Origin: Aequorivita xiaoshiensis
GTDB lineage: Bacteria > Bacteroidota > Bacteroidia > Flavobacteriales > Flavobacteriaceae
DNA: 64,000 nt
NCBI RefSeq assembly: GCF_022008395.1
Contig: NZ_JAIRBB010000001.1
Span: forward strand, 558,001-622,000
Direction: 5' to 3'
Position numbers and translations under genes: made by a program. Below the pieces are notes generated by a model that saw nothing but the letters and a program-made list of their open reading frames with translations, was not told the DNA's origin and did no database searches. Shown here piece after piece: positions 10,911 to 26,093 of the stretch; positions within the stretch are counted from its first letter, which is position 1, and every line of letters begins with the position of its first letter.

Positions 10911-13454
10911 TTGAAGGGCACTTATAAAATTACATTATTCACTCTAGCTGTAATATTTTTTGCGGCTTGTTCACGTAAAAAGAATACTTTTATAAACCGT
11001 AATGTTCACGCGGTAACTGCTGAGTTCAACACCTTGTACAATGGAAATTTAGCCTTTACCGATGGTAAGAACAGACTTGCAGCAGGTTATCGCGATAACT
11101 TTTGGGAGATCTTGCCTGTAGAACGTATCGAAATTAAGGAAGCTGAAATTAAAGCGCCAGGGAAAAATAACAGTGGCGACTTTAATAGAGCAGAAGAAAA
11201 AGCTGCCAAGGCAATCCAAAAACACTCGATGTATATCGATGGCCGTGAGCATAACCCACAGATAGATGAGGCTTATATTCTTTTAGGAAAAGCACGTTAC
11301 TACGACGGACGTTTTGTTCCTGCACTAGATGCTTTCAACTTTATTTTAGACCGTTACCCTACTAGTAATAGCATAAATATTGCTAAAGTTTGGAAGGCAA
11401 AAACAAATATTCGTTTAAATAACGAAGAGTACGCAATCGAGAACCTAAAAAGAATGTTCCGAGATGACGATCTTAATGAAGAAGAATTAGCAGATGGTGC
11501 CGCAATGATGGCGCAAGCATTTATCAATCTTGATTCATTAGAGCCAGCGCTAGAGTATATGAAGATGGCTGTAGATAACGTTCAGGATAACGAGCTAAAA
11601 GGAAGATACACTTTTATAAAAGGTCAGCTTTACAACCGTTTGCAAGAAAAAGATAGCGCAAATATGGCTTTCGATGAGGTGATTGCAATGAATCGTAAAA
11701 CTTCTCGCGTTTATATGATTAACGCTTATCTTGAAAAAGGAAAGAATTTTGATTACGCAAGTGGAGACCGTACTGCATTCTTAACACTGTTAAACGACCT
11801 AGCAGAAAACCGTGAAAACCGTCCGTTTTTAGACAAGATTTACAATCAGTTTGGAGATTATTACCGCAATAGCGATAGTATCGAAAGAGCTGTTGCGTAT
11901 TACAACAAATCGATACAGGCGTTTAATCAGGATAGAGTACTACAGGCAGTAAACTATCAAACTTTAGCTGAAATTAATTTTGATGATGCCGAGTACAAAA
12001 AAGCAGGAGCGTATTACGATAGTACCCTAACTTTCCTTGAACAAAATAGTCGTCAATGGCGTAGAATTACAAAAAAGCGTGAAAATCTTGACGATGTAAT
12101 TAAGTATGAAGACATCGCTTCGGTAAACGACAGTGTTTTGAGGCTAGTGAAAATGAGCCCAGCAGAACAAGAAGCGTTTTTCGTTTCGTATACTACTGCT
12201 TTAAAAGAACAAGCTCGACTAGATTCAATTGAAGCTGTAAAAACAGAACAGAGAATTGCCAATAACGAATTTTATAAAAAAGAAAATACAGCCGCCGGTC
12301 CAAATAAAGGTAGCACTTTCTATTTCTACAACACTTCAACTATAGCATACGGAAAAGGAGAGTTTAGAAAAATTTGGGGTGACAGAAAGCTTGAAGATAA
12401 CTGGAGACTTTCTAGTAAGAATTCTTCGTTAATTTCTGATGAAGACATTGAAGCTGAGGTTATTCCAATTTCTGAAAACGAAAAGTTTAAGCCAGAAACT
12501 TATATTGCTTTAATCCCGACCGATGAAAAGGTAATCGATAGTTTAGCAAAAGATAGAAACTTTGCTTACTACCAATTAGGGCTTATTTATAAAGAGAAAT
12601 TCAAGGAGTACAATCTTGCAGCAAATAGATTAGAGACATTGCTTACCAACAATCCTGAACATAGGTTAGTGGTTCCTTCTAAATATAACTTGGTTAAAAT
12701 TTATGAAGAGCTAGATAACGCTTCAGCTGCTGAAAAGTATAAGAATGATATTCTTACAAATCATGCTGATACGCGTTATGCGGAAATATTACGCAATCCA
12801 AATTCGCAATTACCAACAGACGAATCTAGCCCAGAATTTAAGTACAAACAATTGTATAAAGAATTTGAAGCTGCAAAATACGCTGAGGTAATTGAAAAAT
12901 GCGATGAGTATATGATGGTATATAATGGTAATGACATTGTGCCAAAATTTGAATTGCTTAAAGCTACCGCGCTCGGACGTCAACAGGGTTTTGAAGTGTA
13001 TAAAAAAGCTTTAAACTTTATTGCGCTTAACTATCCAAGTACAGCAGAAGGGAAACAAGCTCAGCAAATCTATAGCAATGTGCTACCGCAATTAGAATTT
13101 AAAAACTTCGGAAAAGATGAAGATGCTAAATCTTGGAAGCTAGTTTATAAGTTTGAAAATACTGAGGGCGAAGCTGCCGAAAAATTAAAAGAAAAGTTAG
13201 ATAAAGCGATAGAAAATCACCGTTATATTAATATGACTACTTCTATTGACTACTACAATCCGAAAAGTAAATTTGTAATCGTTCACGGATTAAACACTAA
13301 AGGTGGTGCGAAAGGATTTGCCGAATTATTAGAAGAAAATAAAGAGTACAAGGTGAAGCACCCGTATTTTGAAATTTCTAGCGATAATTATAAAATCGTT
13401 CAAATTCATAAAAACTTGGATGATTATTTAAATCAAGAAGCATCCGCACAATAG
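10911..13454 (+). CDS. sprE: T9SS/gliding-associated TPR lipoprotein (SprE/PorW homologue)
   Basis: 847 residues beginning with a TTG codon and a lipoprotein signal ending VIFFAAC (cysteine 20), followed by RKKNTFINRNVHAVTAEFN, a start typical of SprE/PorW. Several TPR-like helix pairs occupy about residues 110-370, then a charged linker, then a second helical-repeat block from about 540. SprE of Flavobacterium and PorW of Porphyromonas are outer-membrane or periplasmic lipoproteins needed for type IX secretion and, in gliding species, motility. Secreted proteins with type A sorting tails are encoded at 34.8 and 48.3 kb, which agrees. The bactofilin gene follows after 50 nt. Upstream, TATTTTTA at 10831-10840 is one base off the -7 consensus. 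Confidence 0.85.
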   Translation: MKGTYKITLFTLAVIFFAACSRKKNTFINRNVHAVTAEFNTLYNGNLAFTDGKNRLAAGYRDNFWEILPVERIEIKEAEIKAPGKNNSGDFNRAEEKAAKAIQKHSMYIDGREHNPQIDEAYILLGKARYYDGRFVPALDAFNFILDRYPTSNSINIAKVWKAKTNIRLNNEEYAIENLKRMFRDDDLNEEELADGAAMMAQAFINLDSLEPALEYMKMAVDNVQDNELKGRYTFIKGQLYNRLQEKDSANMAFDEVIAMNRKTSRVYMINAYLEKGKNFDYASGDRTAFLTLLNDLAENRENRPFLDKIYNQFGDYYRNSDSIERAVAYYNKSIQAFNQDRVLQAVNYQTLAEINFDDAEYKKAGAYYDSTLTFLEQNSRQWRRITKKRENLDDVIKYEDIASVNDSVLRLVKMSPAEQEAFFVSYTTALKEQARLDSIEAVKTEQRIANNEFYKKENTAAGPNKGSTFYFYNTSTIAYGKGEFRKIWGDRKLEDNWRLSSKNSSLISDEDIEAEVIPISENEKFKPETYIALIPTDEKVIDSLAKDRNFAYYQLGLIYKEKFKEYNLAANRLETLLTNNPEHRLVVPSKYNLVKIYEELDNASAAEKYKNDILTNHADTRYAEILRNPNSQLPTDESSPEFKYKQLYKEFEAAKYAEVIEKCDEYMMVYNGNDIVPKFELLKATALGRQQGFEVYKKALNFIALNYPSTAEGKQAQQIYSNVLPQLEFKNFGKDEDAKSWKLVYKFENTEGEAAEKLKEKLDKAIENHRYINMTTSIDYYNPKSKFVIVHGLNTKGGAKGFAELLEENKEYKVKHPYFEISSDNYKIVQIHKNLDDYLNQEASAQ

Positions 13455-13504
13455 GTAATTAGAACCTGAAATTCTATAGCATAATAATATTAAAATCTAA
13501 ATCC

Positions 13505-13975
13505 ATGTTTCCAGAAAAAAAAGCCAAGAAAAATAATGTTGAACCAAGCACGGCTCAAAACAGAATAAGTGAAGGTACAACTCTTAAAGGAGATATATCT
13601 TCTTCAGGTTTTTTTAGAATTGATGGTTCCATAGAAGGGAATGTGAATACCCCCTCAAAAGTTGTTTTAGGGAAAACTGGAGAAATTAAAGGAACGTTAA
13701 GTTGTGAAAATGCCGATTTAGAAGGAAAATTTGAAGGAAGTCTTCAAGTTACCGGAACGCTAACGCTGCGATCTACGGCTTTAGTAGAGGGTGAAATTGT
13801 TGTAGGAAAGCTATCTGTTGAACCCGGAGCAGTATTAAATGCGTCTTGTATTATGCAAGACGGTAAGCCTAAAGCTGGACTAAACGCTCCAAAGTTACCT
13901 GGAGATTCGCAACCTCGACTTTTTAATAAGAAACAAAAGGTTAAGGAAACCTCTACACTCACAAAATCAGACTAA
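13505..13975 (+). CDS. Bactofilin (polymer-forming cytoskeletal protein)
   Basis: 156 residues. A disordered N-terminus is followed by the bactofilin (DUF583) beta-helix, about residues 18-115, with regular repeats such as ISEGTTLKGDISSSGFFRID, GSIEGNVNTPSKVVLGKTG and LEGKFEGSLQVTGTLTLRST. A basic, proline-containing tail follows. Bactofilins self-assemble without nucleotides into filaments that localise cell-envelope proteins. The gene lies between the SprE homologue (50 nt) and atpZ (15 nt), so it may be transcribed with the start of the ATP synthase operon. Confidence 0.9.
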   Translation: MFPEKKAKKNNVEPSTAQNRISEGTTLKGDISSSGFFRIDGSIEGNVNTPSKVVLGKTGEIKGTLSCENADLEGKFEGSLQVTGTLTLRSTALVEGEIVVGKLSVEPGAVLNASCIMQDGKPKAGLNAPKLPGDSQPRLFNKKQKVKETSTLTKSD

Positions 13976-13990
13976 ATATAATGTATAAAA

Positions 13991-14200
13991 ATGTCTGCCG
14001 ATAATAAAAATAATAATCGATGGATTGCTCTTTCGGGTATTGGAATTCAAATGGGACTTACAATATTCCTTGGAAACCTATTAGGTAGGTGGCTAGCCAG
14101 CACTTTCGAATTAAATTTTTTGGAACCAACCCTCACTATCGCAGCAATATTTTTGTCGATTTTTAGTGTCATTAGAGGTGTAAATAAATTAAACAAATAA
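13991..14200 (+). CDS. AtpZ/AtpI family protein
   Basis: 69 residues with two membrane helices (about 11-35 and 45-62). The pattern GIGIQMGLTIFLGNLLGRWL is typical of the small AtpZ/AtpI proteins encoded at the head of F1Fo operons, which are thought to help c-ring assembly or Mg/Ca supply. It lies 15 nt after bactofilin and its stop abuts the next ATG, indicating an operon. Confidence 0.82.
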   Translation: MSADNKNNNRWIALSGIGIQMGLTIFLGNLLGRWLASTFELNFLEPTLTIAAIFLSIFSVIRGVNKLNK

Positions 14201-14596
14201 ATGCTTCAGAAAAAAATACTTCATTACACCTTATTATGTGGGTTGGTTTTAATTGCTGGTTATGCTATTCATAACTTCATTCTTGAACAATTAAATATAG
14301 AACATCCGTTTAACTTATGGCATATATACCTTTTTCAAGGCATAGCAACGCTTATTCTTTGTATTAACTTTGAATTTATTTCGCAGAAAATGCAGCAATT
14401 AAAAGACCAGTTAGGCTTTTTTTATTTAGCAGCAATGGCCGTTAAAGTTGGATTATTTAGTTTATTCTTTAAAGATATTCTTTTTTCATCGTTAGTATTG
14501 TCAAAAACAGACAGTCTTTCGCTGTTAATTCCAGTATTTCTGTTTCTATTTTTAGAGGTTCTAATAATTGTTAAAATTCTGAATAGAAACAACTAA
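14201..14596 (+). CDS. DUF6168-type membrane protein of the ATP synthase operon
   Basis: 131 residues with four predicted membrane helices (about 7-27, 42-62, 75-95, 105-125). It occupies the place between atpZ and atpB where many Flavobacteriia encode a small membrane protein (DUF6168, from memory). It may be the counterpart of AtpI/subunit i, but sequence similarity to E. coli AtpI is not evident. ATG directly abuts the atpZ stop codon. Confidence 0.65.
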   Translation: MLQKKILHYTLLCGLVLIAGYAIHNFILEQLNIEHPFNLWHIYLFQGIATLILCINFEFISQKMQQLKDQLGFFYLAAMAVKVGLFSLFFKDILFSSLVLSKTDSLSLLIPVFLFLFLEVLIIVKILNRNN

Positions 14597-14641
14597 AATA
14601 TAAATTTGCATTTGTTGTGGGTATTTTAAATAGAAATTCCC

Positions 14642-14649
14642 TACTTTTG
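14642..14649 (+). promoter_or_regulatory. Candidate -7 box upstream of atpB
   Basis: TACTTTTG matches TAnnTTTG exactly and lies 39 nt before the atpB ATG. A second match, TAAATTTG, lies at 14601-14608. The ATP synthase structural genes may thus have their own promoter apart from read-through from bactofilin/atpZ. Confidence 0.4.
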
Positions 14650-14688
14650 CCGCCGAATTAGACAGGCATTATTTTTTCAAGAGAAGCA

Positions 14689-15879
14689 ATGAAAATATCA
14701 ATTTATTCAATTAAATTTTTCGGATTACTACTTACTTGTTTGTTGACTATCAATGTTTTTGCTAATCAGAGCAATGAACAAGCGCAACAAGACGACGGAA
14801 GAGTAAGTACTCCAAGTGAAATCGAAGAATATATTCTTCATCACTTAAAAGACTCACATGGTTTTCATTTAGTATCTTTTACTAATGATGCAGGTGAACG
14901 CGTGCATGTTGGATTTCCACTTCCGGTTATCGTTTATGGAAACGATGGCTTCACTACATTTATGTCTTCAGAATTTCACCACGACACTGAAGGCGAGGTG
15001 ATTGTAGAGAAAAATGGAAGCCGTTTTGTAAACTACCACAGTAAAATTTACGAGTTGGAGGAAGGTGCAACTGAGCTTGTGTTTGACGAAGCGCATCATC
15101 CTGTTAATGCTTCAAAACCTTTAGACTTATCGATTACAAAAAGTGTATTTGGTATTTTGGTGGTAGGGTTGTTAATGTTATGGTGGTTTTCATCATTGGC
15201 TAGACAATATAAAAAGAGAAGTATTCCTAAAGGATTTGGTCGTGTACTAGAACCGCTGGTAATTTATGTAAGAGACGAAATTGCTAGACCAAACATCGGC
15301 GAAACGAAATACAGAAAATTCACTGGATACCTTTTAACTGTTTTCTTTTTTATTTGGATTTTGAATTTATTAGGGTTAACACCTCTAGGGTTTAACGTTA
15401 CAGGGCAGATTGCAGTAACTGCAGCGCTAGCTGTGCTAACGTTAATCATTTACGTATTTAGTGGTAATAAAGATTTCTGGGGTCATATTTTTTGGATGCC
15501 AGGTGTGCCAATTTTAATTCGTCCAATTTTAGCGGTAATCGAATTGGTTGGAACATTAATTATTAAACCATTCTCACTTTTAGTGCGTTTGTTTGCTAAC
15601 ATTTCGGCGGGACATATTATCCTTATGAGTTTAATCGCGATTATGATAAACTTAAAAGCAGATTTAACTCCAGTTGGTTCAACAGCACTATCTTTTGTTT
15701 TGTCGTTATTCATCTCTGTTATCGAGCTCTTAGTAGCGTTCTTACAGGCCTATATTTTTACGATGCTTTCGGCGTTGTTTATCGGTATGGCTGTTGCGGA
15801 ACACGATCACGAACATGAGCACGATGCACATGGAAATGAAGTTCCAGATGCAGAAGATATTAGAGAGAATTTTATATAG
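14689..15879 (+). CDS. atpB: F1Fo ATP synthase subunit a, with long periplasmic N-terminal extension
   Basis: 396 residues against about 270 in E. coli. An N-terminal signal-like helix (residues 8-25) and an extra hydrophilic domain (about 30-150) precede the usual five or six helices. The essential arginine of the proton path is R300 in LLVRLFANISAGH. Subunit a forms the two half-channels beside the c-ring in the inner membrane. The tail HDHEHEHDAHG (about residues 376-386) is strikingly histidine- and acid-rich. The N-terminal extension is known in other Bacteroidota. Confidence 0.95.
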   Translation: MKISIYSIKFFGLLLTCLLTINVFANQSNEQAQQDDGRVSTPSEIEEYILHHLKDSHGFHLVSFTNDAGERVHVGFPLPVIVYGNDGFTTFMSSEFHHDTEGEVIVEKNGSRFVNYHSKIYELEEGATELVFDEAHHPVNASKPLDLSITKSVFGILVVGLLMLWWFSSLARQYKKRSIPKGFGRVLEPLVIYVRDEIARPNIGETKYRKFTGYLLTVFFFIWILNLLGLTPLGFNVTGQIAVTAALAVLTLIIYVFSGNKDFWGHIFWMPGVPILIRPILAVIELVGTLIIKPFSLLVRLFANISAGHIILMSLIAIMINLKADLTPVGSTALSFVLSLFISVIELLVAFLQAYIFTMLSALFIGMAVAEHDHEHEHDAHGNEVPDAEDIRENFI

Positions 15880-15928
15880 TAGTATAGTAGCGTATTTTTT
15901 TGTTTAATTAATTTATATACATTTTTTT

Positions 15929-16129
15929 ATGGAAACAATGATTCCAAATTTAGTAGGTGCTGGTATTATCGTATTTGGTGCTGGTTTTGGTTTAGGTAAG
16001 ATTGGTGGAAGCGCAATGGAAGCTATTGCACGTCAGCCAGAAGCTGCCAACAAAATTCAAACAGCGATGATTATTATTGCTGCACTTTTAGAAGGTTTAG
16101 CATTCGGTGCACTTTTCTTAGGAAAGTAA
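15929..16129 (+). CDS. atpE: F1Fo ATP synthase subunit c
   Basis: 66 residues forming the two-helix hairpin of the c-ring. The polar loop is ARQPEA (residues 34-39) and the ion-carrying carboxylate is E55 in AALLEGLAF. A glycine follows E55 and the Na+-type ligand set is not apparent, so proton coupling is likely. It lies 49 nt after atpB and is followed by an intercistronic hairpin. Confidence 0.95.
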   Translation: METMIPNLVGAGIIVFGAGFGLGKIGGSAMEAIARQPEAANKIQTAMIIIAALLEGLAFGALFLGK

Positions 16130-16145
16130 TCCCAAAAAACCAAAG

Positions 16146-16181
16146 TTCACTTTCCTGTAACGGTTGGTTGCAGGAAGTGAA
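16146..16181 (+). promoter_or_regulatory. Intercistronic hairpin between atpE and atpF
   Basis: TTCACTTTCCTG and CAGGAAGTGAA pair with a single bulged T around a loop of about a dozen bases, just after the atpE stop. A short T-run follows. Such a hairpin could partly terminate transcription or protect the upstream mRNA, helping the higher synthesis that subunit c needs. The role is inferred from position. Confidence 0.5.
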
Positions 16182-16212
16182 TTTTAAAAGAAAAAATTAA
16201 TAACAAAAATCT

Positions 16213-16226
16213 TTACCCCGGGGTAA
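16213..16226. promoter_or_regulatory. GC-rich 14-bp palindrome before atpF
   Basis: TTACCCCGGGGTAA is a perfect palindrome ending 7 nt before the atpF ATG, in otherwise AT-rich leader DNA. The GGGG could act as an unusual ribosome-binding stretch, or the element could be a protein-binding site; the sequence alone cannot decide. Confidence 0.4.
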
Positions 16227-16233
16227 TAATATT

Positions 16234-16734
16234 ATGGAAACATTATTAAACGATTTTTCTCCAGGACTGTTTGTGATGCAGACAGTCTTATTAATAGTGC
16301 TTATTTTACTAATGGTAAAATTTGCTTGGAAACCCATTTTAAATTCATTGAATGAAAGAGAAGAAGGGATTCAAGGGGCATTAGATGCTGCTGAAAAAGC
16401 AAAACTTGAAATGGCAAACCTTCAGGCGGACAATGAAAGATTGTTGCAGGAGGCGCGTACAGAGCGTGAAGCTATGCTAAAAGAAGCTCGTGAGATTAAA
16501 ACAAAAATGATCTCAGATGCTAAAGAGGAGGCTAAAGAAGAAGCAGATAAAATGATTACTCAAGCTCAAGGAGCTATTGAGAGTGAGAAAAAAGCTGCAA
16601 TTGCTGAAATGAAAGCAACCGTAGCAACACTATCTTTAGAAATTGCTGAAAAAGTAGTAAAAAGCGAACTTTCAGACAATGGCAAGCAAATGAAGCTTGT
16701 AAATGAAATGTTAAGTGACGCAAAATTAAACTAA
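16234..16734 (+). CDS. atpF: F1Fo ATP synthase subunit b
   Basis: 166 residues: one N-terminal membrane helix (about 12-32, LFVMQTVLLIVLILLMVKFA), the conserved KPI hinge, then a long charged coiled coil rich in E, K and A that forms the peripheral stalk. It joins subunit a to the delta subunit and holds the F1 head still. It follows atpE and precedes atpH by 6 nt. Confidence 0.95.
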   Translation: METLLNDFSPGLFVMQTVLLIVLILLMVKFAWKPILNSLNEREEGIQGALDAAEKAKLEMANLQADNERLLQEARTEREAMLKEAREIKTKMISDAKEEAKEEADKMITQAQGAIESEKKAAIAEMKATVATLSLEIAEKVVKSELSDNGKQMKLVNEMLSDAKLN

Positions 16735-16740
16735 TATTCA

Positions 16741-17277
16741 ATGAGCAGAGCAGCTATACGATACGCGAAAGCAATTTTGCAGAAGGCAAACCAGAACAAC
16801 ACCGAGGCTGTTGTTTTTGGCGATATGCAATCTGTGTATAAAACCATTGAAGGCAGTCGCGAATTGCAAACAGTACTTCAAAGTCCTGTTATAAAAGCCA
16901 ACGATAAAAAGGAAGCTTTGCTAAAAATATTCAGTGGTCAATCAGAAGCTACACACATTCTAATTAATGTATTGGTGGATAATAAACGTGCACCATTATT
17001 AAGAGCAGTGGCAAAAAGCTACATCGATATTTATAACGACCATCAAGGTGTAAAAGCCGCAACTGTTATAACCGCCGTGCCACTTACCTCTGAACTTGAA
17101 GCTAATGTAATGGCTAAGGTAAAGGAGTTAACAGGTAGTGATAAAGTAACACTTAAGAATGAGGTTGATCCTACAATAATAGGTGGGTTTATCCTTAAGG
17201 TAGGGGATATTCAGTACAACGCGAGTATCTCAAACCAATTAGGAAATTTAAAAAGAGAATTTTCAAAATCAATATAA
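16741..17277 (+). CDS. atpH: F1Fo ATP synthase subunit delta
   Basis: 178 residues, standard for the delta/OSCP family. The N-terminal helical domain begins RAAIRYAKAILQKA and the C-terminal part carries the conserved DPTIIGGFILKVGD signature. It caps the F1 head and binds subunit b. It lies between atpF (6 nt) and atpA (68 nt). Confidence 0.95.
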   Translation: MSRAAIRYAKAILQKANQNNTEAVVFGDMQSVYKTIEGSRELQTVLQSPVIKANDKKEALLKIFSGQSEATHILINVLVDNKRAPLLRAVAKSYIDIYNDHQGVKAATVITAVPLTSELEANVMAKVKELTGSDKVTLKNEVDPTIIGGFILKVGDIQYNASISNQLGNLKREFSKSI

Positions 17278-17345
17278 TTAAAATTTACTGGTGCAGGTTT
17301 TTAAGGCCAAATTCCTGAAAACTACCACCTAAAACCTAGATAAAA

Positions 17346-18926
17346 ATGGCAGAAGTAAAACCAGCTGAAGTATCAGCAATTTTAAAGCAACAACTTACAG
17401 GTTACGAAGCAACTGCTTCCCTGGATGAAGTAGGAACTGTTTTAACCGTAGGTGACGGTATTGTTCGCGCATACGGACTTTCAAACGCCGAGTATGGTGA
17501 ATTGGTGGCTTTTGAAAGTGGTCTTGAAGGTATTGTATTGAACCTTGAAGAGGACAACGTAGGTATCGTACTTTTAGGTCCTTCAAAAGAAGTAAAAGAG
17601 GGTTCAACAGTAAAACGTACTCAACGTATCGCATCGCTTAATGTAGGTGAAGGTATCGTTGGTCGTGTAGTAAATACATTGGGTCAGCCTATTGATGGTA
17701 AAGGTCCTATCACTGGTGAAACTTATGAAATGCCTTTGGAGCGTAAAGCACCAGGAGTTATCTACCGCCAGCCGGTAACTGAGCCACTTCAAACAGGTAT
17801 TAAGTCTATTGACGCAATGATTCCTGTAGGTCGTGGTCAACGTGAGCTTGTAATTGGTGACCGTCAAACTGGTAAATCTACAGTATGTATTGATACTATT
17901 TTGAATCAAAAAGAATTTTACGATGCAGGTGAGCCTGTATACTGTATATATGTTGCTGTTGGACAAAAAGCTTCTACTGTTGCAAACATTGCAAACGTAC
18001 TAGAAGAAAAAGGTGCAATGGCTTATACAACTATTGTTGCGGCAAACGCATCAGATCCTGCTCCAATGCAGGTGTATGCTCCTTTCGCAGGTGCGGCAAT
18101 TGGTGAGTACTTCCGCGATACTGGTCGTCCAGCATTGATTGTATTTGATGATTTATCTAAACAAGCAGTAGCATACCGTGAGGTGTCGCTTCTTCTTCGT
18201 CGTCCACCGGGACGTGAGGCTTACCCTGGAGACGTTTTCTTCTTGCACTCAAGATTACTTGAGCGTGCAGCAAAAGTTATTGCTGATGACGATATTGCAA
18301 AAGAAATGAACGATCTTCCAGATTCATTAAAAGGAATCGTAAAAGGTGGTGGTTCTTTAACGGCACTTCCAATTATTGAAACACAAGCAGGTGATGTTTC
18401 TGCTTATATCCCAACAAACGTTATTTCGATTACAGATGGACAGATTTTCCTTGATGGTGATTTGTTTAACTCTGGGGTTCGTCCAGCTATTAACGTAGGT
18501 ATTTCAGTATCTCGTGTAGGAGGTAACGCTCAGATTAAATCGATGAAAAAAGTAGCAGGTACCTTAAAACTGGATCAAGCAGCTTTCCGTGAATTGGAAG
18601 CTTTCGCAAAATTCGGTTCAGACTTAGATGCTGCAACTTTAAATGTAATTGAAAAAGGTAAACGTAACGTAGAGATATTAAAGCAATCTGAAAACGATCC
18701 TTACACTGTAGAAGATCAAATTGCAATTATCTATGCAGGTTCTAAAAACTTGATGCGTAACGTACCAGTAGAAAAGGTAAAAGAATTTGAAAGAGATTAT
18801 CTAGAAATGCTTAACCTGAAGCACAGAGATACTCTTGATACATTAAAAGCTGGTAAGCTTACAGACGAAGCAATCGACGTAATGGTGTCTGTTGCTAACG
18901 ACGTGTCTGCGAAATATAAAAAATAG
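17346..18926 (+). CDS. atpA: F1Fo ATP synthase subunit alpha
   Basis: 526 residues. The Walker A motif GDRQTGKST is at residues 171-179; the adjacent [26 protein letters not shown] and [20 protein letters not shown] blocks are all intact. Alpha forms the non-catalytic nucleotide sites of the F1 hexamer with beta. The beta and epsilon genes (atpD, atpC) are not in this operon, as is usual in Bacteroidota. Its stop is followed within 2 nt by the heptamer repeats of an inserted element, not by atpG. Confidence 0.97.
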
Positions 18927-18928
18927 AA

Positions 18929-18979
18929 GTTATGAGTTATGAGTTAAGAGTTATGAAAGTACTCTAAACTCATAATTCT
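18929..18979. repeat. Left heptamer array and hairpin of the inserted element
   Basis: Four tandem heptamers, GTTATGA, GTTATGA, GTTAAGA, GTTATGA (18929-18956), are followed by the opposite orientation, CTCATAATTCTAAACTC. GAGTTAAGAGTTATGA and TCATAATTCTAAACTC match as an inverted pair at 14 of 16 positions, so this end can fold into a hairpin. The array begins 2 nt after the atpA stop codon. Confidence 0.85.
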
Positions 18980-18997
18980 AAACTCTGAACTTGAAAA

Positions 18998-19334
18998 ATG
19001 GGGTTAGATGATAGTCCAATTAGAATTAAAACCTTTGAATTCGCTTGCGATATAGTAGAATACTGTGACGTTTTAAAAAGCTAATAAGGATTTTGAATTG
19101 GCATCCTAATTACTTAGGAGTGGAACAAGTATTGGCGCAAATACTAGAGAAGCTCAACGAGGTGTAAGTACAAAAGATTTTAAAAATAAATTTGGTATAG
19201 CTCTCAAAGAGGCTGACGAAACAATGTTTTGGTTAGAGATTTTAGAGGCAACTGGTAGAGAAGTACCTATAGATATGAAGAACAAGTGTGAAGAGTTAAT
19301 TCGAATTTTGGTTTCGATAATTAAAAACTCTTAG
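18998..19334 (+). pseudogene. Decayed four-helix-bundle (S23/IVP-like) protein gene
   Basis: Starting at ATG 18998 the frame reads MGLDDSPIRIKTFEFACDIV and EYCDVLKS, then stops at 19082. One base shift later the frame continues NKDFELAS, a TAA at 19107 where glutamine is usual, then LLRSGTSIGANTREAQRG, STKDFKNKFGIALKEADETM and a helix ending in CEELIRILVSIIKNS with a stop at 19332. LLRSGTSIGAN and KEA.E..FWL are signature stretches of the four-helix-bundle family first seen in 23S rRNA intervening sequences. One frameshift and one nonsense change make it a pseudogene, otherwise nearly full length (about 110 residues). It is bracketed by inverted heptamer arrays and interrupts the atpA-atpG junction. 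Confidence 0.85.
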
Positions 19335-19343
19335 ACTCTGCAC

Positions 19344-19364
19344 TCATAACTCATAACTCATAAC
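19344..19364. repeat. Right heptamer array of the inserted element
   Basis: Three tandem copies of TCATAAC, the exact reverse complement of the GTTATGA unit of the left array, end 7 nt before the atpG start codon. The gene remnant is therefore bracketed by terminal inverted arrays, and the right array borders or overlaps the atpG ribosome-binding region. Confidence 0.85.
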
Positions 19365-19371
19365 TAGAGAA

Positions 19372-20247
19372 ATGGCGAATTTAAAAGAAATACGTAACAG
19401 AATATCATCCGTTAGTTCAACGATGCAGATTACCAGTGCCATGAAAATGGTATCGGCTGCAAAATTGAAGAAGGCTCAGGATGCAATTACAGCAATGCGT
19501 CCTTATTCTGAAAAACTTACTGAACTTTTACAAAATTTAAGTGCAACGCTTGGAGAAGACAGCGGAAGCAAATATTCAGACCAACGCGAGGTAAATAAAG
19601 TTTTGGTGGTTGCCATTACCAGTAATCGTGGTTTGGCGGGAGCTTTTAACTCAAATATCATAAAACAAGCTAAAAACTTGGTAGCTGAAACTTATGCTGG
19701 AAAGCAAGTAGATTTTATGACTATTGGAAAAAAAGGGAATGACATTCTGAAAAAATTCGGAACGGTAATCGAAAACAACAACAATATTTTTGATGACTTA
19801 ACCTTCGAAAACTCTTCAGAAATTGCTCAAAACCTAATGGATTTATTCTCTGAAGGCAAGTACGATAAAATTGTAGTGGTTTATAATCATTTCAAAAATG
19901 CGGCTACACAGTTAGTAATGACTGAGCAATTCTTACCTATTTTACCTCCAAAAGCAATTGAAGGTGAAGCAGTAAGCACAACTGAAACAGCTTACATTTT
20001 TGAACCTTCAAAAGAAGAAATTGTTGAGTCTTTAATTCCGAAAAGCTTAAAAACTCAGTTGTTTAAAGCACTTCGTGATAGTGTTGCTAGTGAGCACGGT
20101 GCGCGTATGACTGCGATGCACAAAGCAACCGACAACGCAACCGAGCTTCGCGACGATTTAAAACTTAAATACAACAAAGCACGTCAAGCCGCTATTACCA
20201 ATGAGATCCTCGAGATTGTTGGGGGTGCAGAGGCATTGGCAGGATAA
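19372..20247 (+). CDS. atpG: F1Fo ATP synthase subunit gamma
   Basis: 291 residues. The N-terminal helix ANLKEIRNRISSVSSTMQIT and the C-terminal helix with ASEHGARMTAMHKATDNA form the rotating coiled coil; both are intact. Gamma transmits c-ring rotation to the F1 head. It is separated from atpA by 445 nt containing the decayed element, whereas these genes normally lie close together, so its ribosome-binding site may have been altered by the insertion. A terminator follows. Confidence 0.96.
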   Translation: MANLKEIRNRISSVSSTMQITSAMKMVSAAKLKKAQDAITAMRPYSEKLTELLQNLSATLGEDSGSKYSDQREVNKVLVVAITSNRGLAGAFNSNIIKQAKNLVAETYAGKQVDFMTIGKKGNDILKKFGTVIENNNNIFDDLTFENSSEIAQNLMDLFSEGKYDKIVVVYNHFKNAATQLVMTEQFLPILPPKAIEGEAVSTTETAYIFEPSKEEIVESLIPKSLKTQLFKALRDSVASEHGARMTAMHKATDNATELRDDLKLKYNKARQAAITNEILEIVGGAEALAG

Positions 20248-20332
20248 GTTTGGCTCCGTTCAGTTACCGAGCCTCGGTTTATCCCGTATTAATTCGGGAA
20301 ACTCAGCTAACTTTGTTATTATAAATTATTTT

Positions 20333-20361
20333 AAAGCCTTTCGTAATCGGAAGGCTTTTTT
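20333..20361 (+). terminator. Terminator of the ATP synthase operon
   Basis: AAAGCCTTTCG and CGGAAGGCTTT pair around a TAAT loop and are followed by further T residues. A weaker hairpin (TCCCG/CGGGA, about 20283-20299) stands just before it. Confidence 0.8.
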
Positions 20362-20450
20362 ATTCCATAAATATTAATTTTTTCCTAAACCCATCTATGT
20401 AATATTATGTTGGTAGGTTTTTTGTTCAATAAAATTCGTAATTTTCCAAT

Positions 20451-20963
20451 ATGATAAAGCAAATAACTATAATACTGACTCTTCCAATCATGCTCTTTAG
20501 CCTTTCTAGCTGCGGAGGAATGAAGAATACGAACAGCAAAAAACTTGTTCAGGACCCTCCTTTTAGAGTAATTGAAGCCTTCTACCAAAATTGGGTAGCT
20601 GGAGTAGAAGAAGGCGGTTCGGGAGTAAATATCCACCTTACTTTTAGTGAAAAAGATACCGATGTATTGATTCAAAGTATCTACTTCAGAAATGCTATCC
20701 TAGAAGCCAAAGGAAACATAAACGCGCCTAATAAGTTTGTAGGGTATCTCAACAATAACACTAAACGCAACGTAATTATGGATGCCGACCCAATGAAAGA
20801 AGCTAAAAACACTATTTCAGAAGAATTTCCATTTCAGTTGAAAGATAACGAGGCGGTAGTTGAATATTGGTATGGTGGAAAAAAGAATTATTATAAAATC
20901 GGAAATATTTCGGAAAGAGATATGATTCCGTATCCACAAGCAAATCCAAATCAACATGAATAG
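20451..20963 (+). CDS. Hypothetical lipoprotein
   Basis: 170 residues with a signal peptide and lipobox FSLSSC (cysteine 21). The mature protein is mainly beta and polar, with VNIHLTFSEK and a tail EYWYGGKKNYYKIGNIS. I do not recognise a family, though the length and style match small flavobacterial envelope lipoproteins. It stands alone between the atpG terminator and the dehydrogenase gene. Confidence 0.75.
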   Translation: MIKQITIILTLPIMLFSLSSCGGMKNTNSKKLVQDPPFRVIEAFYQNWVAGVEEGGSGVNIHLTFSEKDTDVLIQSIYFRNAILEAKGNINAPNKFVGYLNNNTKRNVIMDADPMKEAKNTISEEFPFQLKDNEAVVEYWYGGKKNYYKIGNISERDMIPYPQANPNQHE

Positions 20964-21079
20964 AAAGCAATTTCCTGCTAAGAAGTGAGTTTTACGTCTT
21001 ATCTAGACACGCCCCATTTGTATTCAATATTGAAACAACCTGAAAAGAAATCTTCTTCAAATTATAATATCTTCCTAAT

Positions 21080-22027
21080 ATGAAAATCCTTCACTTAGAT
21101 AACAATCACCTTTTACTCTTAAAAATGTTGAAGGATGCCGGATTTACGAACGAAGAAAACTATACAATTTCTAAAGCTGATACAGAGGAAATTATTTCAG
21201 AATATGATGGTATTGTAATCCGCAGCCGTTTCAACATTGACAAGCAGTTTCTCGATGCTGCCAAAAACCTGAAATTTATAGCTCGAGTTGGCGCTGGACT
21301 TGAGAGTATCGACATCGATTACGCAGAAAAGCTCGGCGTAAAGCTAATTGCCGCCCCAGAAGGCAATAGAAACGCTGTAGGCGAACATTCACTCGGGATG
21401 CTTCTTTCGCTATTCAATAACTTAAACAAGGCCGATAAGGAGGTTAAAAACGGTCTTTGGAATCGAGAAGCCAATCGCGGAATAGAACTAGACGGAAAAA
21501 CTGTTGGTATCATTGGTTATGGCAATATGGGGAAAGCGTTTTCCAAAAAACTAAGCGGTTTTGATTGCGAAGTACTTTGTTATGATATAAAAGAAAATGT
21601 AGGGGATGATAAGGCAAAACAAGTTTCTTTAAAAGAACTTCAACAAAAAGCAAACGTATTGAGCCTTCACACGCCATGGACCCCTTTAACTAATAAAATG
21701 ATTGATGCTGAGTTTATAAATGCCTTCTCAAAACCCTTTTGGCTCATAAACACCGCACGCGGAAAAAGTGTAGTTACTGCAGATTTAGTTTCAGCATTAA
21801 AATCGGGAAAAGTTTTAGGAGCAGGACTGGATGTTTTAGAATTCGAAAAACTCTCTTTTGAAACACTTTTTGATTCAGATAATCTACCCGATTCATTGAA
21901 AGAGCTTTTTGAAATGGACAATGTAATTTTAAGTCCGCATATTGCGGGTTGGACGGTGGAAAGCAAGGAGAAACTCGCTACGGTAATTGCTGAAAAAATT
22001 ATTAGAACTTTTAAAAATTTGAGATGA
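21080..22027 (+). CDS. D-2-hydroxyacid dehydrogenase (SerA-like)
   Basis: 315 residues of the NAD-dependent D-isomer 2-hydroxyacid dehydrogenase family. The catalytic domain holds IVIRSRFNIDKQFLDAA and VGAGLESID. The Rossmann domain has GKTVGIIGYGNMGKAFSKKL (G-x-G-x-x-G), the arginine in NTARGKSV, and the catalytic histidine in LSPHIAGWT. It lacks the ACT domain of long SerA forms. A role as phosphoglycerate dehydrogenase in serine synthesis is possible, but no serC is beside it. The stop overlaps the VOC gene start (ATGA). Confidence 0.88.
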   Translation: MKILHLDNNHLLLLKMLKDAGFTNEENYTISKADTEEIISEYDGIVIRSRFNIDKQFLDAAKNLKFIARVGAGLESIDIDYAEKLGVKLIAAPEGNRNAVGEHSLGMLLSLFNNLNKADKEVKNGLWNREANRGIELDGKTVGIIGYGNMGKAFSKKLSGFDCEVLCYDIKENVGDDKAKQVSLKELQQKANVLSLHTPWTPLTNKMIDAEFINAFSKPFWLINTARGKSVVTADLVSALKSGKVLGAGLDVLEFEKLSFETLFDSDNLPDSLKELFEMDNVILSPHIAGWTVESKEKLATVIAEKIIRTFKNLR

Positions 22028-22410
22028 AGAATAGAGTAACAGGAATTGGAGGAGTATTTTTTAAGTCAAAAGACCCAGATAAAACGAAGGAATGGTACAA
22101 AAACCACTTGGGATTAAACACAGATAATTACGGGTGTACCTTTTGGTGGAAAGATGAAAAGGGCAACAAATGCTCTACCCAATGGAGCCCATTTAAAGCC
22201 GATACCGAATATTTTTCTCCAAGCGAAAAAGACTTTATGTTCAATTATCGCGTGGAAAATTTAGAAGAACTTTTAAAAGTATTAAAAGCAGAAGGGGTTA
22301 CTATTGTAGGTGAAATGCAAGAATTCGAGTACGGTAAATTTGGTTGGATTTTAGATCCTGAAGGAAATAAAATTGAGCATTGGGAACCTGTTGACAAGGC
22401 TTTCTTGTAA
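22024..22410 (+). CDS. VOC (glyoxalase/dioxygenase superfamily) protein
   Basis: 128 residues with one VOC module made of two beta-alpha-beta-beta-beta units: the first begins GIGGVFFKSKDPDKTKEWYK, the second ends GKFGWILDPEGNKIEHWEP, containing the usual metal-ligand glutamate. Substrate unknown; many such proteins in this group are uncharacterised. It overlaps the dehydrogenase gene by 4 nt, so they are translationally coupled and may act in one pathway. Confidence 0.82.
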   Translation: MKNRVTGIGGVFFKSKDPDKTKEWYKNHLGLNTDNYGCTFWWKDEKGNKCSTQWSPFKADTEYFSPSEKDFMFNYRVENLEELLKVLKAEGVTIVGEMQEFEYGKFGWILDPEGNKIEHWEPVDKAFL

Positions 22411-22415
22411 ATAAA

Positions 22416-24266
22416 TTAGTCGGTTGCTTTTTCTTCTTTAGAAGTTTCAGGATCTAGGTTATGATCATTTTTTCCTGAATATTTTCTTTCCAACTCCTCT
22501 TGAAATTCCTCCATTACAGGTTTTACAGTACTTTCGGGCAAATCTGCAATACGAATGTACATTAGACCATCTACAGCATTGTTAAACAAAGGATCTACGT
22601 TAAAGGCAACAACCTTGGCGTTTTGCTTAATATATTTTTTAATAAGAACTGGCAAACGCAAACTCCCAGGTTCTACCTCGTCAATTATTTTATCAAATTT
22701 ATTGAGGTCTGCCGCACTTTCATCAAAAATGAAGTCTTTATCGGCATCCTTCAATTTTACTTTATATTCCTTCTTCGGTTTGATGTATTGCGCAACATAC
22801 GGATCGTAATAGTTCGATTTCATAAACTCTATCATCAAGCCTTTTGAAAACTCTGAAAACTTATTGCTAATACTTACCCCTCCAATCAAGTAACTGTGTT
22901 CTGGATAGCGCAGGGTGGTATGAACAATTCCCTTCCAAAGTAAAAACAATGGCATTGGCCGCAATTGGTATTCCTTAATAACAAAAGCACGGCCCATTTC
23001 AATGGATTTGCTCATCATTTCATATAATTCCGGCTCAAAACGGAAGAGATCTTGTAGGTAGAATCCGTCAATTCCAAAGCGTGCAAATATTTCTGAACCT
23101 AGTCCCATTCTATAGGCTCCAGCCATTTTACGAGCGTCATTATCCCATAAAAACATATGGTGATAATAGCTGTCAAACTTATCGAGGTCAGTGCTATTAT
23201 TTGTTCCTTCACCTACTTCGCGAAAGGTAATTTCGCGCAACCGCCCAATTTCCTGTAAGATATAAGGAATAGAATCTGCCTGCGCTAAGAACACCTCATA
23301 ATTTTTACTTACTAAAAGACGTTTATCTGCCTTACGAAGTTTTTCAATTTCGGCTTCTATTGCTTGCAGCGGAATTGGTCCAGCAATTTTTTTAGGTGGT
23401 TTTGGGAATTTTAATGTTTTTGGGATGCTGTCCAACAACTTTTTCTTTTCAAAAGGATTAGAAAGCATATAGGTTTTCTTCCTAAGAAACTCGGTAAAAT
23501 CTGATAATGATTTGTGTTCTTTTTGGTCGTTAACTGAAATTGGATTTCCAATTCGAACTTTTATTAATCGCTCCCTTTGGGTAAGAAGTTCTGATGGGAG
23601 TTTGGCTGTACGTAAGGTGTCACTAATCTTAGCCATACGGTAGAACAACTTGCTGTTTTTTGCGTGAAAATAGATTGGGACAACCGGCACCTCGGCTTTT
23701 TTAACCAATTTCATCGCGGCTTCTTCCCAAGGCTTATCAACCAAAAGTTTCTCTTCTCTATAGGTGGAAACTTCTCCGGCAGGAAAAATTCCTAGCGGAT
23801 TACCTTCTCGTAGATGTGTAATAGCTGCCTTAAAGCCTGCAACACTAGATTTTACATCCTTTCTATCTTCAAAAGGATTTACAGGCATTACATAGGGCTT
23901 TAGAGGCTCGATTCTATGCAAAAGAAAGTTGGCAATAATTTTAAAATCAGGGCGGTGTTCTAACAGTAATTTTAACAGAAGAATCCCGTCGATTCCACCT
24001 AATGGATGGTTTGAAATGGTTATAAAAGCCCCTGTTTTGGGAATTCTACGAAGATCTTCTTCGGGAATTTCGAATTTTATTTCAAATTCTTCGAGCAGTG
24101 CATTTACAAATTCAAGATCTTGAAGATGCTTGTTTCTATCGTAAATTTTATTCAGCGTAGTGATGTTTAAAATCTTCATTAAAGACCAGCCCATAAATGT
24201 GCCTAGAAAGCCGAATTTATCTACGTTTATTGCTTTAGCAACTTCCTTTGCGTTGACTAATCCCAT
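22416..24266 (-). CDS. olsF: Two-domain acyltransferase, OlsF-like ornithine lipid synthase
   Basis: 616 residues in two parts. The N-terminal PlsC-like domain (about 1-290) has SNHPLGGIDG (residues 85-94), with His and Asp of the acyltransferase active site, and FPAGEVS (161-167). The C-terminal part (about 320-560) matches OlsB/hemolysin-like GNAT acyltransferases: LREITFREVGEGTN, DLDKFDSYYHHMFLWD, the GAYRMGLG block and SIEMGRAFV. This order is that of OlsF, described in Serratia and Flavobacterium, in which one protein makes lyso-ornithine lipid and then acylates it. The identification rests on architecture; phospholipid acylation or another amino acid head group is possible. Confidence 0.75.
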   Translation of the reverse strand: MGLVNAKEVAKAINVDKFGFLGTFMGWSLMKILNITTLNKIYDRNKHLQDLEFVNALLEEFEIKFEIPEEDLRRIPKTGAFITISNHPLGGIDGILLLKLLLEHRPDFKIIANFLLHRIEPLKPYVMPVNPFEDRKDVKSSVAGFKAAITHLREGNPLGIFPAGEVSTYREEKLLVDKPWEEAAMKLVKKAEVPVVPIYFHAKNSKLFYRMAKISDTLRTAKLPSELLTQRERLIKVRIGNPISVNDQKEHKSLSDFTEFLRKKTYMLSNPFEKKKLLDSIPKTLKFPKPPKKIAGPIPLQAIEAEIEKLRKADKRLLVSKNYEVFLAQADSIPYILQEIGRLREITFREVGEGTNNSTDLDKFDSYYHHMFLWDNDARKMAGAYRMGLGSEIFARFGIDGFYLQDLFRFEPELYEMMSKSIEMGRAFVIKEYQLRPMPLFLLWKGIVHTTLRYPEHSYLIGGVSISNKFSEFSKGLMIEFMKSNYYDPYVAQYIKPKKEYKVKLKDADKDFIFDESAADLNKFDKIIDEVEPGSLRLPVLIKKYIKQNAKVVAFNVDPLFNNAVDGLMYIRIADLPESTVKPVMEEFQEELERKYSGKNDHNLDPETSKEEKATD

Positions 24267-24316
24267 GAAATATTTTAGCTGTTTATATCCAACAAATATA
24301 GCGAAACCGATTGATA

Positions 24317-25576
24317 CTACTCCTTAATAACTAATTGCACCGTTTCTTTGCTTTCTTGTTTTAAAAGTACATTTTTATTTTCAGCAAGTGCCTTAACCTC
24401 AGTTGGGTTAAAATGCCTAATTGTGTATAGTGTGACGTTCTCATTCCATTTTACACGGAATTTTTCTCGCAATTTTGCCAATAGCCTTTCTAAATTTCCG
24501 AATTTATCGTTCACACAAACCGAAAAACTTATAGCAGAATTTTGAATTAGCTCTACTTTCATTTTATAGGTATAAAGCCATTTAAACACATCGCCAATGT
24601 TGTCTTCCATCATAAATGAAAAATCTAACGATGATAAGGAAATTAGCACTAAATCCTTCTTTAGTATAAAGCAAGATGTTTCTGGATCTATTCGGTCTCC
24701 CTTACCAACACAAGTTCCCGAAGCTGTAGGATTGAGAAAGGACTTTACAAAAAGTGGAATTTCCTTGCGCTGTAGTGGCTGTAAGGTTTTGGGGTGTATT
24801 ACCGATGCCCCATAAAATGCGAGCTCTATAGCTTCACGATAACTAATGCGATTTAAGAGTAATGTTTTTGTAAAATATCGCGGGTCTGCATTTAAAACTC
24901 CTGGAACATCCTTCCAAATAGTAACACTTTCTGCATTTAAGCAATAGGCAAAAATTGCAGCAGTGTAATCACTCCCTTCTCGACCTAGAGTAGTGGTGAA
25001 GTTGTTTGTGTTTTCTGAACCTAAAAAACCTTGAGTTACACTAAGTCCCGAGGTATTTACTTTTTCTGAAATTTTCTGCTGCGTTATTTTCCAATCTACA
25101 CTGGCATCTCGATGGTTGTCGTCAGTAATTATGCATTTGCGAACATCCAATAATTCGTTTTTTAATCCAAATTCTGTAAGATATTCAGAAACTATAGTGC
25201 TTGAAACTAATTCTCCGTATCCTACTACTTGATCATAAACGAAAGCGTGATTTTTAGACTTGTTTACTTTTAAAAAAGAAACCATCTTATCAAATAACTT
25301 AGCTGTTTTTTGATATATAAGGTGGTTAGTATTCTCAAATAATTCATTAACTATCTCTAGGTGATATTCTTTAAATGTAGTAACAAATTCGTTACATGTA
25401 GCAGTGTTATTTTTTAGATATTCAGCTATTACATTTTCAAGTAAATTGGTAGTTTTTCCCATTGCTGAAACCACAACTACTATATTCTTGTCTTCTGTAG
25501 CTTTAAGTATTTCAGCAACATTTTTTACACTATCTGCGTCTTTTACAGATGCTCCTCCAAACTTGAATATTCTCAT
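24317..25576 (-). CDS. Aspartate kinase
   Basis: 419 residues. It phosphorylates aspartate, the entry to lysine, threonine, methionine and diaminopimelate synthesis. The amino acid kinase domain begins FKFGGASVKDADSVKNVA and has TLGREGSDYTAA and VTIWKDVPGVLNADPR; the catalytic core is intact. The C-terminal region (about 300-419) resembles the ACT regulatory region of monofunctional enzymes but looks divergent, so feedback control by lysine cannot be predicted. It is not fused to homoserine dehydrogenase. It is 50 nt upstream of the OlsF-like gene on the same strand. Confidence 0.9.
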   Translation of the reverse strand: MRIFKFGGASVKDADSVKNVAEILKATEDKNIVVVVSAMGKTTNLLENVIAEYLKNNTATCNEFVTTFKEYHLEIVNELFENTNHLIYQKTAKLFDKMVSFLKVNKSKNHAFVYDQVVGYGELVSSTIVSEYLTEFGLKNELLDVRKCIITDDNHRDASVDWKITQQKISEKVNTSGLSVTQGFLGSENTNNFTTTLGREGSDYTAAIFAYCLNAESVTIWKDVPGVLNADPRYFTKTLLLNRISYREAIELAFYGASVIHPKTLQPLQRKEIPLFVKSFLNPTASGTCVGKGDRIDPETSCFILKKDLVLISLSSLDFSFMMEDNIGDVFKWLYTYKMKVELIQNSAISFSVCVNDKFGNLERLLAKLREKFRVKWNENVTLYTIRHFNPTEVKALAENKNVLLKQESKETVQLVIKE

Positions 25577-25622
25577 AAATTTTTTATATCAATCTCTTTA
25601 ACACAAATGAATACTAAAAATA

Positions 25623-26093
25623 TTATTTTTCAATAAAGGCTTTTAGTCCTTTTTCATCCATATGTACTACGCGCCATTCTTTCATAATATTTGCACCACT
25701 GCGTTCGTAAAATCGAATTGCTCCAGTATTCCAATCCAGCACATCCCATGCAACCCTTTTTAATCCATGATTGTAGGCAAATTTCATAACTTCAGTATAA
25801 AGAGCTTCCCCAATACCTTTGCCGCGATGTTCTTCCTTTACAATTAAATCTTCTAGGTGAAGCGTGCGTCCTTTCCAAGTGGAAAAACGGTAATAAATTA
25901 ACGCTGCCCCAACCACTACATTTTCAATTTCGGCAACAAAACAAGTAAACAGTGGATTTTTGCCAAAACCATTAGACTCTAAAACTTCAACCGAAATTTC
26001 AACAGCATCAGGTTCATTTTCAAAAACCGCAAGTTCTTTTATAAGATCTAGAACCTGTGGCATATCCATTTTATTCGCTTTTCTAACCTCCAT
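25623..26093 (-). CDS. GNAT N-acetyltransferase
   Basis: 156 residues with the acetyl-CoA binding motif [19 protein letters not shown] (R/Q-x-x-G-x-G/A) and the later [15 protein letters not shown] stretch, close to the spermidine/diamine acetyltransferase subgroup. The substrate is not defined by sequence. The gene is divergent from fbp, and the interval contains an inverted repeat of two -7-like boxes. Confidence 0.88.

Follow-up and report, generated by a model that had tools for sequence, protein, structure and literature searches.

Inverted heptamer arrays around a broken four-helix-bundle gene between atpA and atpG of Aequorivita xiaoshiensis, a probable IVS-like unit within an essential operon

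What kind of sequence separates atpA from atpG in Aequorivita xiaoshiensis, and how can it be accommodated in an essential operon? The window, that is the whole 64 kb stretch of DNA that was analysed, contains between these two host genes a broken gene of the four-helix-bundle (4HB) family PF05635/TIGR02436, enclosed by two arrays of heptamers (Table 1). A PF05635 match of 53.5 bits extends over positions 19065–19313 with two TAA codons within it. The C-terminal part of the gene has one in-frame TAA (19107–19109), and the stop-free piece 19110–19331 scores 65.5 bits with TIGR02436 (E-value 4.2e-18, cut-off 24) and 44.8 bits with PF05635 (1.5e-11, cut-off 33.8). The N-terminal piece begins at the ATG at 18998 in a different frame from the C-terminal part; its 28 residues alone give no family match in the profile searches, and the piece was assigned to the gene through alignment with relatives. 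The frame change, the in-frame TAA and the matches to both families confirm the broken four-helix-bundle gene of the original prediction. The start codon of this copy is located downstream of the left hairpin; several relatives have theirs inside the final left heptamer, and their stop codon inside the first right one. Among solved structures, 2rld is the sole relative found by sequence at E ≤ 0.01.

Table 1. Features of the atpA–atpG region in the window
Feature	Position	Strand	Remarks
atpA, upstream host gene	17346..18926	+	open frame
Left heptamer array (GTTATGA, GTTATGA, GTTAAGA, GTTATGA)	18928..18956	+	
Local inverted partner of the left array, own hairpin	18961..18984	+	83% complementary, 9 nt apart; paired in RNA fold
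Broken PF05635/TIGR02436 4HB gene	18998..19334	+	pieces in two frames; TAG end 19332–19334
Right heptamer array (TCATAAC x3)	19342..19365	+	inverted relative to the left array; end 6 nt upstream of the atpG start codon
atpG, downstream host gene	19372..20247	+	open frame

GTTATGA starts at 18929, 18936 and 18950 and the variant GTTAAGA at 18943, the left heptamers spanning 18929–18956, and TCATAAC starts at 19344, 19351 and 19358 (span 19344–19364). The predicted arrays, with three GTTATGA and a variant on the left and three TCATAAC in opposite orientation on the right, are thus exact in coordinates and repeats, and the arms 18928–18951 and 19342–19365 are 96% complementary across 24 nt. In RNA folding the left and right arrays pair around the gene both in this copy (z of -3.09) and in the intact element of locus L082 (z of -6.08). 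The two arrays that a period-7 detector picks out in the whole window are both at this element, compared to 0, 0, 1, 0 and 0 in five block-shuffled controls, and there are no tandem arrays with periods of 4–6 or 8–12 in the 64 kb. The window has no excess of single GTTATGA copies (11 observed, 9.46 expected), indicating that the array itself is the unusual part. A chance origin of the repeats is ruled out by these array controls and by the comparisons with mispaired flanks described below. Period-7 arrays are also present elsewhere in the A. xiaoshiensis genome, in stretches outside the window.

No open reading frame of at least 50 residues is listed between atpA and atpG; the frames there contain the broken 4HB gene alone, and by the same frames and list the element does not encode a transposase. 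A known RNA family is rejected as its identity by the lack of an Rfam match at the gathering score in positions 13000–21000, and a defence system by the lack of a PADLOC match at E ≤ 0.01. The closest likeness is to the intervening sequences (IVSs) of 23S rRNA that carry an S23p/IVP gene, for example in Coxiella, which according to the available part of PMC4990558 are excised by RNase III, the S23p gene being in decay in Coxiella; the same text states that S23p proteins have no known function. As far as that part describes them (PMC4990558), these IVSs share with the atp element the protein family, complementary ends that form a stem around the gene, insertion at conserved sites, a sporadic presence and a decaying gene. 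Unlike them, the atp element separates two protein-coding genes within an operon and is not inside an rRNA gene, its arms are heptamer arrays, and excision by RNase III is here presumed. The atp element is probably an IVS-like unit in decayed form, which dwells in an operon and has hairpin ends, with heptamer arms and a PF05635 gene in the loop.

AtpG was located in 27 of the 28 genomes of the genus, and the atpA–atpG gap was read in all 27. Every one of these junctions contains a hairpin (inverted-repeat) element; eight have the 4HB gene, with arm scores from 18.5 to 28, and 19 are gene-less, all with a stem score of at least 10. In our own sorting into five sequence classes the gene is present in class A (GTTATGA, five junctions including that of A. 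xiaoshiensis) and class B (ATTATGA, three junctions), and the gene-less junctions make up class C (GTATTGA, ten), class D (CTTTGCG, four) and class E (CTCTGTG, five). Class changes 13 times on a DNA tree of atpA and atpG, with a minimum of 4, a shuffled mean of 15.3, and 13 or fewer changes in 13 of 200 shuffles. Five well-supported pairs of nearest relatives are of unlike class, namely A. xiaoshiensis (A) and G010 (B), G017 (B) and G014 (C), G015 (C) and G012 (D), G009 (C) and G026 (E), and G005 (B) and G025 (E). In the first pair the last 960 nt of atpA are 93–98% identical and the first 60 nt of atpG 100%, and the element between them differs. Among named records, from which those of this genome itself may be missing, the closest AtpG (88%) comes from an Aequorivita MAG, whose 4HB protein is identical to that of G020, a genome of the genus.

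Sorted by their longest frame, 20 of 30 junction copies (8 from the genus and 22 from the family) have one long frame and 10 are broken, two of the broken ones being among the eight of the genus. An insertion common to all relatives and intact is therefore ruled out, and the patchy occurrence, the conflicting trees and the broken copies show a unit that is exchanged and decays, in line with the decayed mobile unit of the original prediction. Judged from these comparisons, the junction switches between the 4HB unit and other hairpins, and the copies often decay.

In the 60 nt beside the element, genomes of the same class are slightly more alike than the rest of the sequence predicts (likeness as large in 6 of 1000 permutations for atpA and 17 of 1000 for atpG), a weakly positive test for homologous-recombination tracts. 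This likeness fits short-tract homologous recombination, and dedicated mobility is not required; the site fidelity can likewise be explained by plain homologous recombination. The original prediction had pointed to an empty site and a target duplication in relatives for comparison. None of the 27 readable atpA–atpG junctions of the genus is empty, which leaves no counterpart for reading a duplication at this junction. At another 4HB site, nqrD–nqrE, an empty state does exist: of 27 genomes (L324–L350), four have the 4HB gene, 18 a gap of 67–103 nt and five a gap of 1 nt, and many of the 67–103 nt gaps contain, by our reading, ACTG units resembling the filled form.

These filled, short-gap and empty states, together with a gene between inverted ends, are also what might be left by an ordinary insertion sequence or by a MITE mobilised in trans by a transposase, but such a relic is highly improbable, since the element lacks a transposase, the atp type is strictly site-restricted, the gene is a PF05635 member and the ends differ between units. 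REP palindromes with RAYT transposases are short and intergenic, and some are found near the gene of the cognate protein. The element resembles them in these respects but differs in having no transposase and in that its protein is a four-helix bundle.

The site restriction is evident from searches with an intact atp-type 4HB protein. In the 28 genomes of the genus there are eight matches with at least 65% identity, all at atpA–atpG, and the best match away from this junction has 55% identity. In the family, 24 of 299 genomes (A. xiaoshiensis included), belonging to 23 of 236 genera, match at E ≤ 1e-30 with one copy each. The copy is located at atpA–atpG in 22 of the 23 other genomes, or 23 of 24 with our own; the exception, L323 (54% identity), shows neither atpA nor atpG as a neighbour. 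This subfamily is bound to one junction and is therefore not a freely landing unit, and the earlier suggestion that a mobile unit had landed in the operon is not upheld for the atp type in the sense of free jumping.

The heptamers could also be independent dispersed hairpin repeats, with the 4HB gene among them by accident or through a shared taste for operon gaps. The sequence GTTATGAGTTATGA is found at 13 places in the A. xiaoshiensis genome, three of them within the atp element, and no PF05635 match among the eight of this genome is bracketed by the remaining ten. The heptamer arrays are accordingly not exclusive to the unit, and the original prediction, which arrays without the gene at similar frequency elsewhere were to refute, is contradicted in part. 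The GTTATGA array GAGTTATGAGTTATG, which arose as a backward control pattern, is present in 25 of the 28 genomes of the genus compared to eight with the atp-type gene, indicating that GTTATGA arrays are common, and commoner than the gene. These occurrences and the gene-less hairpins of the 19 genus junctions speak for independent repeats, but the arms within one element match far above mispaired flanks, the heptamer type follows the tree of the 4HB protein and not that of the host, and the arms follow the protein identity between unrelated sites, which leaves this explanation improbable.

Contig C1 carries six of this genome's 13 exact GTTATGA pairs. On the same contig, long arrays that mix GTTATGA-family heptamers with others lie beside ordinary genes (L041:2273–2382 and 3509–3829), and the cysD–cysN gap (L042:2444–2738) contains heptamer arrays in one orientation without a 4HB gene; in six relatives the cysD–cysN site has a 4HB gene. 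A scan of IMG/VR contigs for the left array places GAGTTATGAGTTATGAG in 27 stretches (L381–L407), some with several copies and in both orientations.

PF05635 matches are present in all 28 genomes of the genus, 317 in total by our sum, and 116 of these loci were examined, namely the eight of A. xiaoshiensis and 108 from the best-scoring part; L176, which is cut by a contig end, was excluded. Broken copies are under-represented in this set because the loci were mostly drawn from the best-scoring part. The flanks within 160 nt of the 116 loci show peaks at lags of 7, 14 and 21, and period-7 arrays are found in 30 left and 34 right flanks, compared to 1 of 116 at 350–600 nt upstream; period-8 arrays are present in 12 left and 8 right flanks. 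Inverted arms, scored as the left flank against the reverse complement of the right with a score of at least 12, are found in 89 of the 116 loci and in 17 of 345 mispaired combinations (4.9%), and direct flank similarity with the same minimum score in 31 of 116 compared to 2.3% of mispaired ones. Inverted flanks surround 1 of 57 mechanically listed open reading frames of the window. Both neighbouring frames are co-directional with the 4HB gene in 110 of 116 loci, and in 30 of 47 triplets of open reading frames in the window. At 20 chosen loci, named by reading the flanking proteins by eye without a database search, the sites include nqrD–nqrE, cysD–cysN, sufC–sufD, hemD–hemE, sdhA–sdhB and paaA–paaB.

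In a sample of 198 Bacteroidota genomes, PF05635 is found in 147 (E ≤ 1e-10). Among 30 loci of a phylum-wide sample, 25 of them outside the family, 19 have inverted arms (4 of 147 when mispaired), and period 7 is seen in one left and four right flanks; as a phylum-wide mark the heptamers are thus weak. Two 4HB paralogs of A. xiaoshiensis (L009 and L010, C83:45101–47118), 75% identical and about 1.4 kb apart at different junctions, have right arms with the same kind of units, GTCTTACGTCCTACGTC. In the right flank of the 4HB gene of L258 there are about 14 tandem copies of AACCTGC, and in L260, L261 and L264 about 4 to 5; this is possibly a variable-number array.

The joint inheritance of gene and heptamers was followed in a set of 37 copies at the junction, of which 22 come from the family and 15 from the genus and the named loci; two identical pairs are among them. 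L082, L100, L134 and L150, named copies that are a duplicate or fragments, are not part of this set. In the AtpA/AtpG tree the eight Aequorivita rows form one clade (99/98). In the 4HB tree they are scattered among other genera and their monophyly is rejected (AU p 8.2e-7), although the inner branches of this tree are mostly weak, with 7 of 32 starred. Each copy was typed as GAGTT/AACTC or GAATT/AATTC by counts. With all rows included the 4HB tree requires 2 changes of type and the AtpA/AtpG tree 11; without the tied row L313 the numbers are 1 and 10. The heptamer type thus follows the 4HB tree, indicating that gene and repeats travel together.

A second line of evidence comes from 4HB genes at unrelated sites. 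When the genes are clustered by single linkage at 60% identity, a flank is shared by 238 of 698 pairs within clusters, compared to 92 of 6282 pairs that are not directly linked. Pairs without flank similarity were compared in the stretch from the stop codon onward, and counted as alike at a score of at least 14. The right side is alike in 33 of 74 pairs with at least 70% 4HB identity and in 13 of 91 with 60–70%, and in 0 of the 250 pairs sampled in each of the three lower identity classes. The corresponding numbers for the left side are 11 of 74, 4 of 91, and then 0, 0 and 1 of 250. Arm likeness tracks 4HB identity at unrelated sites, so gene and arms have moved together from one site to another. 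The claim that gene and heptamers move as one unit is borne out by both comparisons, which indicate that arms and gene are inherited together and that the atp-type unit has been exchanged between genera of Flavobacteriaceae.

A further explanation is that the hairpin is a regulatory element of the host which sets the ratio of atpA to atpG expression, a function that many sequences could serve, with the 4HB gene as an optional regulator or passenger. Outside the genus, the best 80 of 593 named loci, mostly from Flavobacteriaceae, include 11 junctions with the gene or traces of it by eye (9 by tblastn). Of the other 69, which are gene-less, 36 have a stem score of at least 10, as do all 19 gene-less junctions of the genus, compared to 3 of 71 atpH–atpA gaps and 4 of 69 shuffled sequences. 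Paired changes are found in 4 of 21 pairs in the stems of classes D and E, and in 1 of 16 in class C. Among the closest distinct pairs of intact 4HB copies, dN and dS are 0.019 and 0.635 for L065 and L070, and 0.066 and 0.839 for L090 and L145, values that indicate strong purifying selection. The stems, the paired changes in classes D and E and this selection are all as expected for a regulatory hairpin; the selection and the paired changes, including that in class C, also fit the IVS-like unit. Against a regulatory element, 33 of the 69 gene-less junctions outside the genus have no such stem, some of the gaps being just 12–13 nt, the gene is present in just the 24 of 299 genomes of the family and broken in a third of the junction copies, and the atpH–atpA gaps are shorter (median 44 nt versus 74 nt), for which reason fewer stems are expected there. 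A host regulatory element is thus rather unlikely as an account of this locus, though less so than independent repeats. Period-7 arrays in the gene-less junctions outside the genus (10 of 69) are no commoner than in the atpH–atpA gaps (7 of 71).

For an IVS-like unit, persistence in the operon can be pictured by analogy with the IVSs of rRNA. In the polycistronic mRNA the arms would pair into a stem open to cleavage by RNase III or another double-strand RNase, in which case the essential operon would not be silenced. Homology in atpA and atpG might let incoming DNA replace the junction, and the 4HB protein could assist in this by attaching to its own hairpin; invasion, decay and re-invasion would then form a homing-like cycle. 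More broadly, and as a tentative proposal that we consider possible but doubtful, the core operons of Bacteroidota may harbour a homing-like class of units, in which each PF05635 protein is specific for its own hairpin of inverted heptamers and promotes the entry of gene and arms at one conserved junction, the paired arms permitting trimming of the mRNA so that the operon tolerates the unit. Under such a homing-like reading the gene-less hairpins would be relics or non-autonomous forms.

Short tandem repeats and relatives of the protein are known from other settings. Tandem heptanucleotides of Geobacter metallireducens, paired on opposite strands, are predicted binding sites of a global regulator in the available part of PMC2700814; they resemble the atp element in their tandem repeats of about 7 nt and in many opposite-strand pairs at variable distance, but have no linked 4HB gene in that part, where "four helix" is absent. 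TAACTGA heptamers are described in the part available of PMC4679880 from Beggiatoaceae, Cyanobacteria and five Bacteroidetes, among them Aequorivita sublithincola, as direct repeats mostly near start codons. They too form arrays of 7-nt units between genes, some of them in Aequorivita itself, but the atp arrays are inverted around a gene, and neither "four helix" nor "S23" occurs in the text available of PMC4679880. PF05635 resembles Avd of the diversity-generating retroelements, a related four-helix-bundle family, according to the accessible portion of PMC10053308. Unlike in these retroelements, neither a reverse transcriptase nor a template repeat is apparent in the atp element, and no reverse transcriptase was recognised by eye in the list of open reading frames for positions 12000–26000 of the window. 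In Flavobacterium columnare a four helix bundle gene is noted between the genes for guanylate kinase and nicotinate-nucleotide adenylyltransferase, as far as the available text of PMC5524665 goes. The PF05635 protein family and the IVS architecture are known already; in a literature search that reached few subscription papers, no description was recognised of 4HB genes that lie in operons with inverted heptamers on either side.

In related bacteria the unit appears to enter this one location, decay there and be replaced, which points to a kind of element, so far little known, that inhabits essential operons. If many PF05635 proteins belong to hairpin-ended units of core operons, the atp operon and by our reading also nqr, cys, suf, hem and sdh, this would give the family a testable role and explain the heptamer arrays that surround its genes. 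It would, if true, extend IVS-type elements from rRNA into mRNA, and show a way in which a selfish unit can persist in an essential operon.
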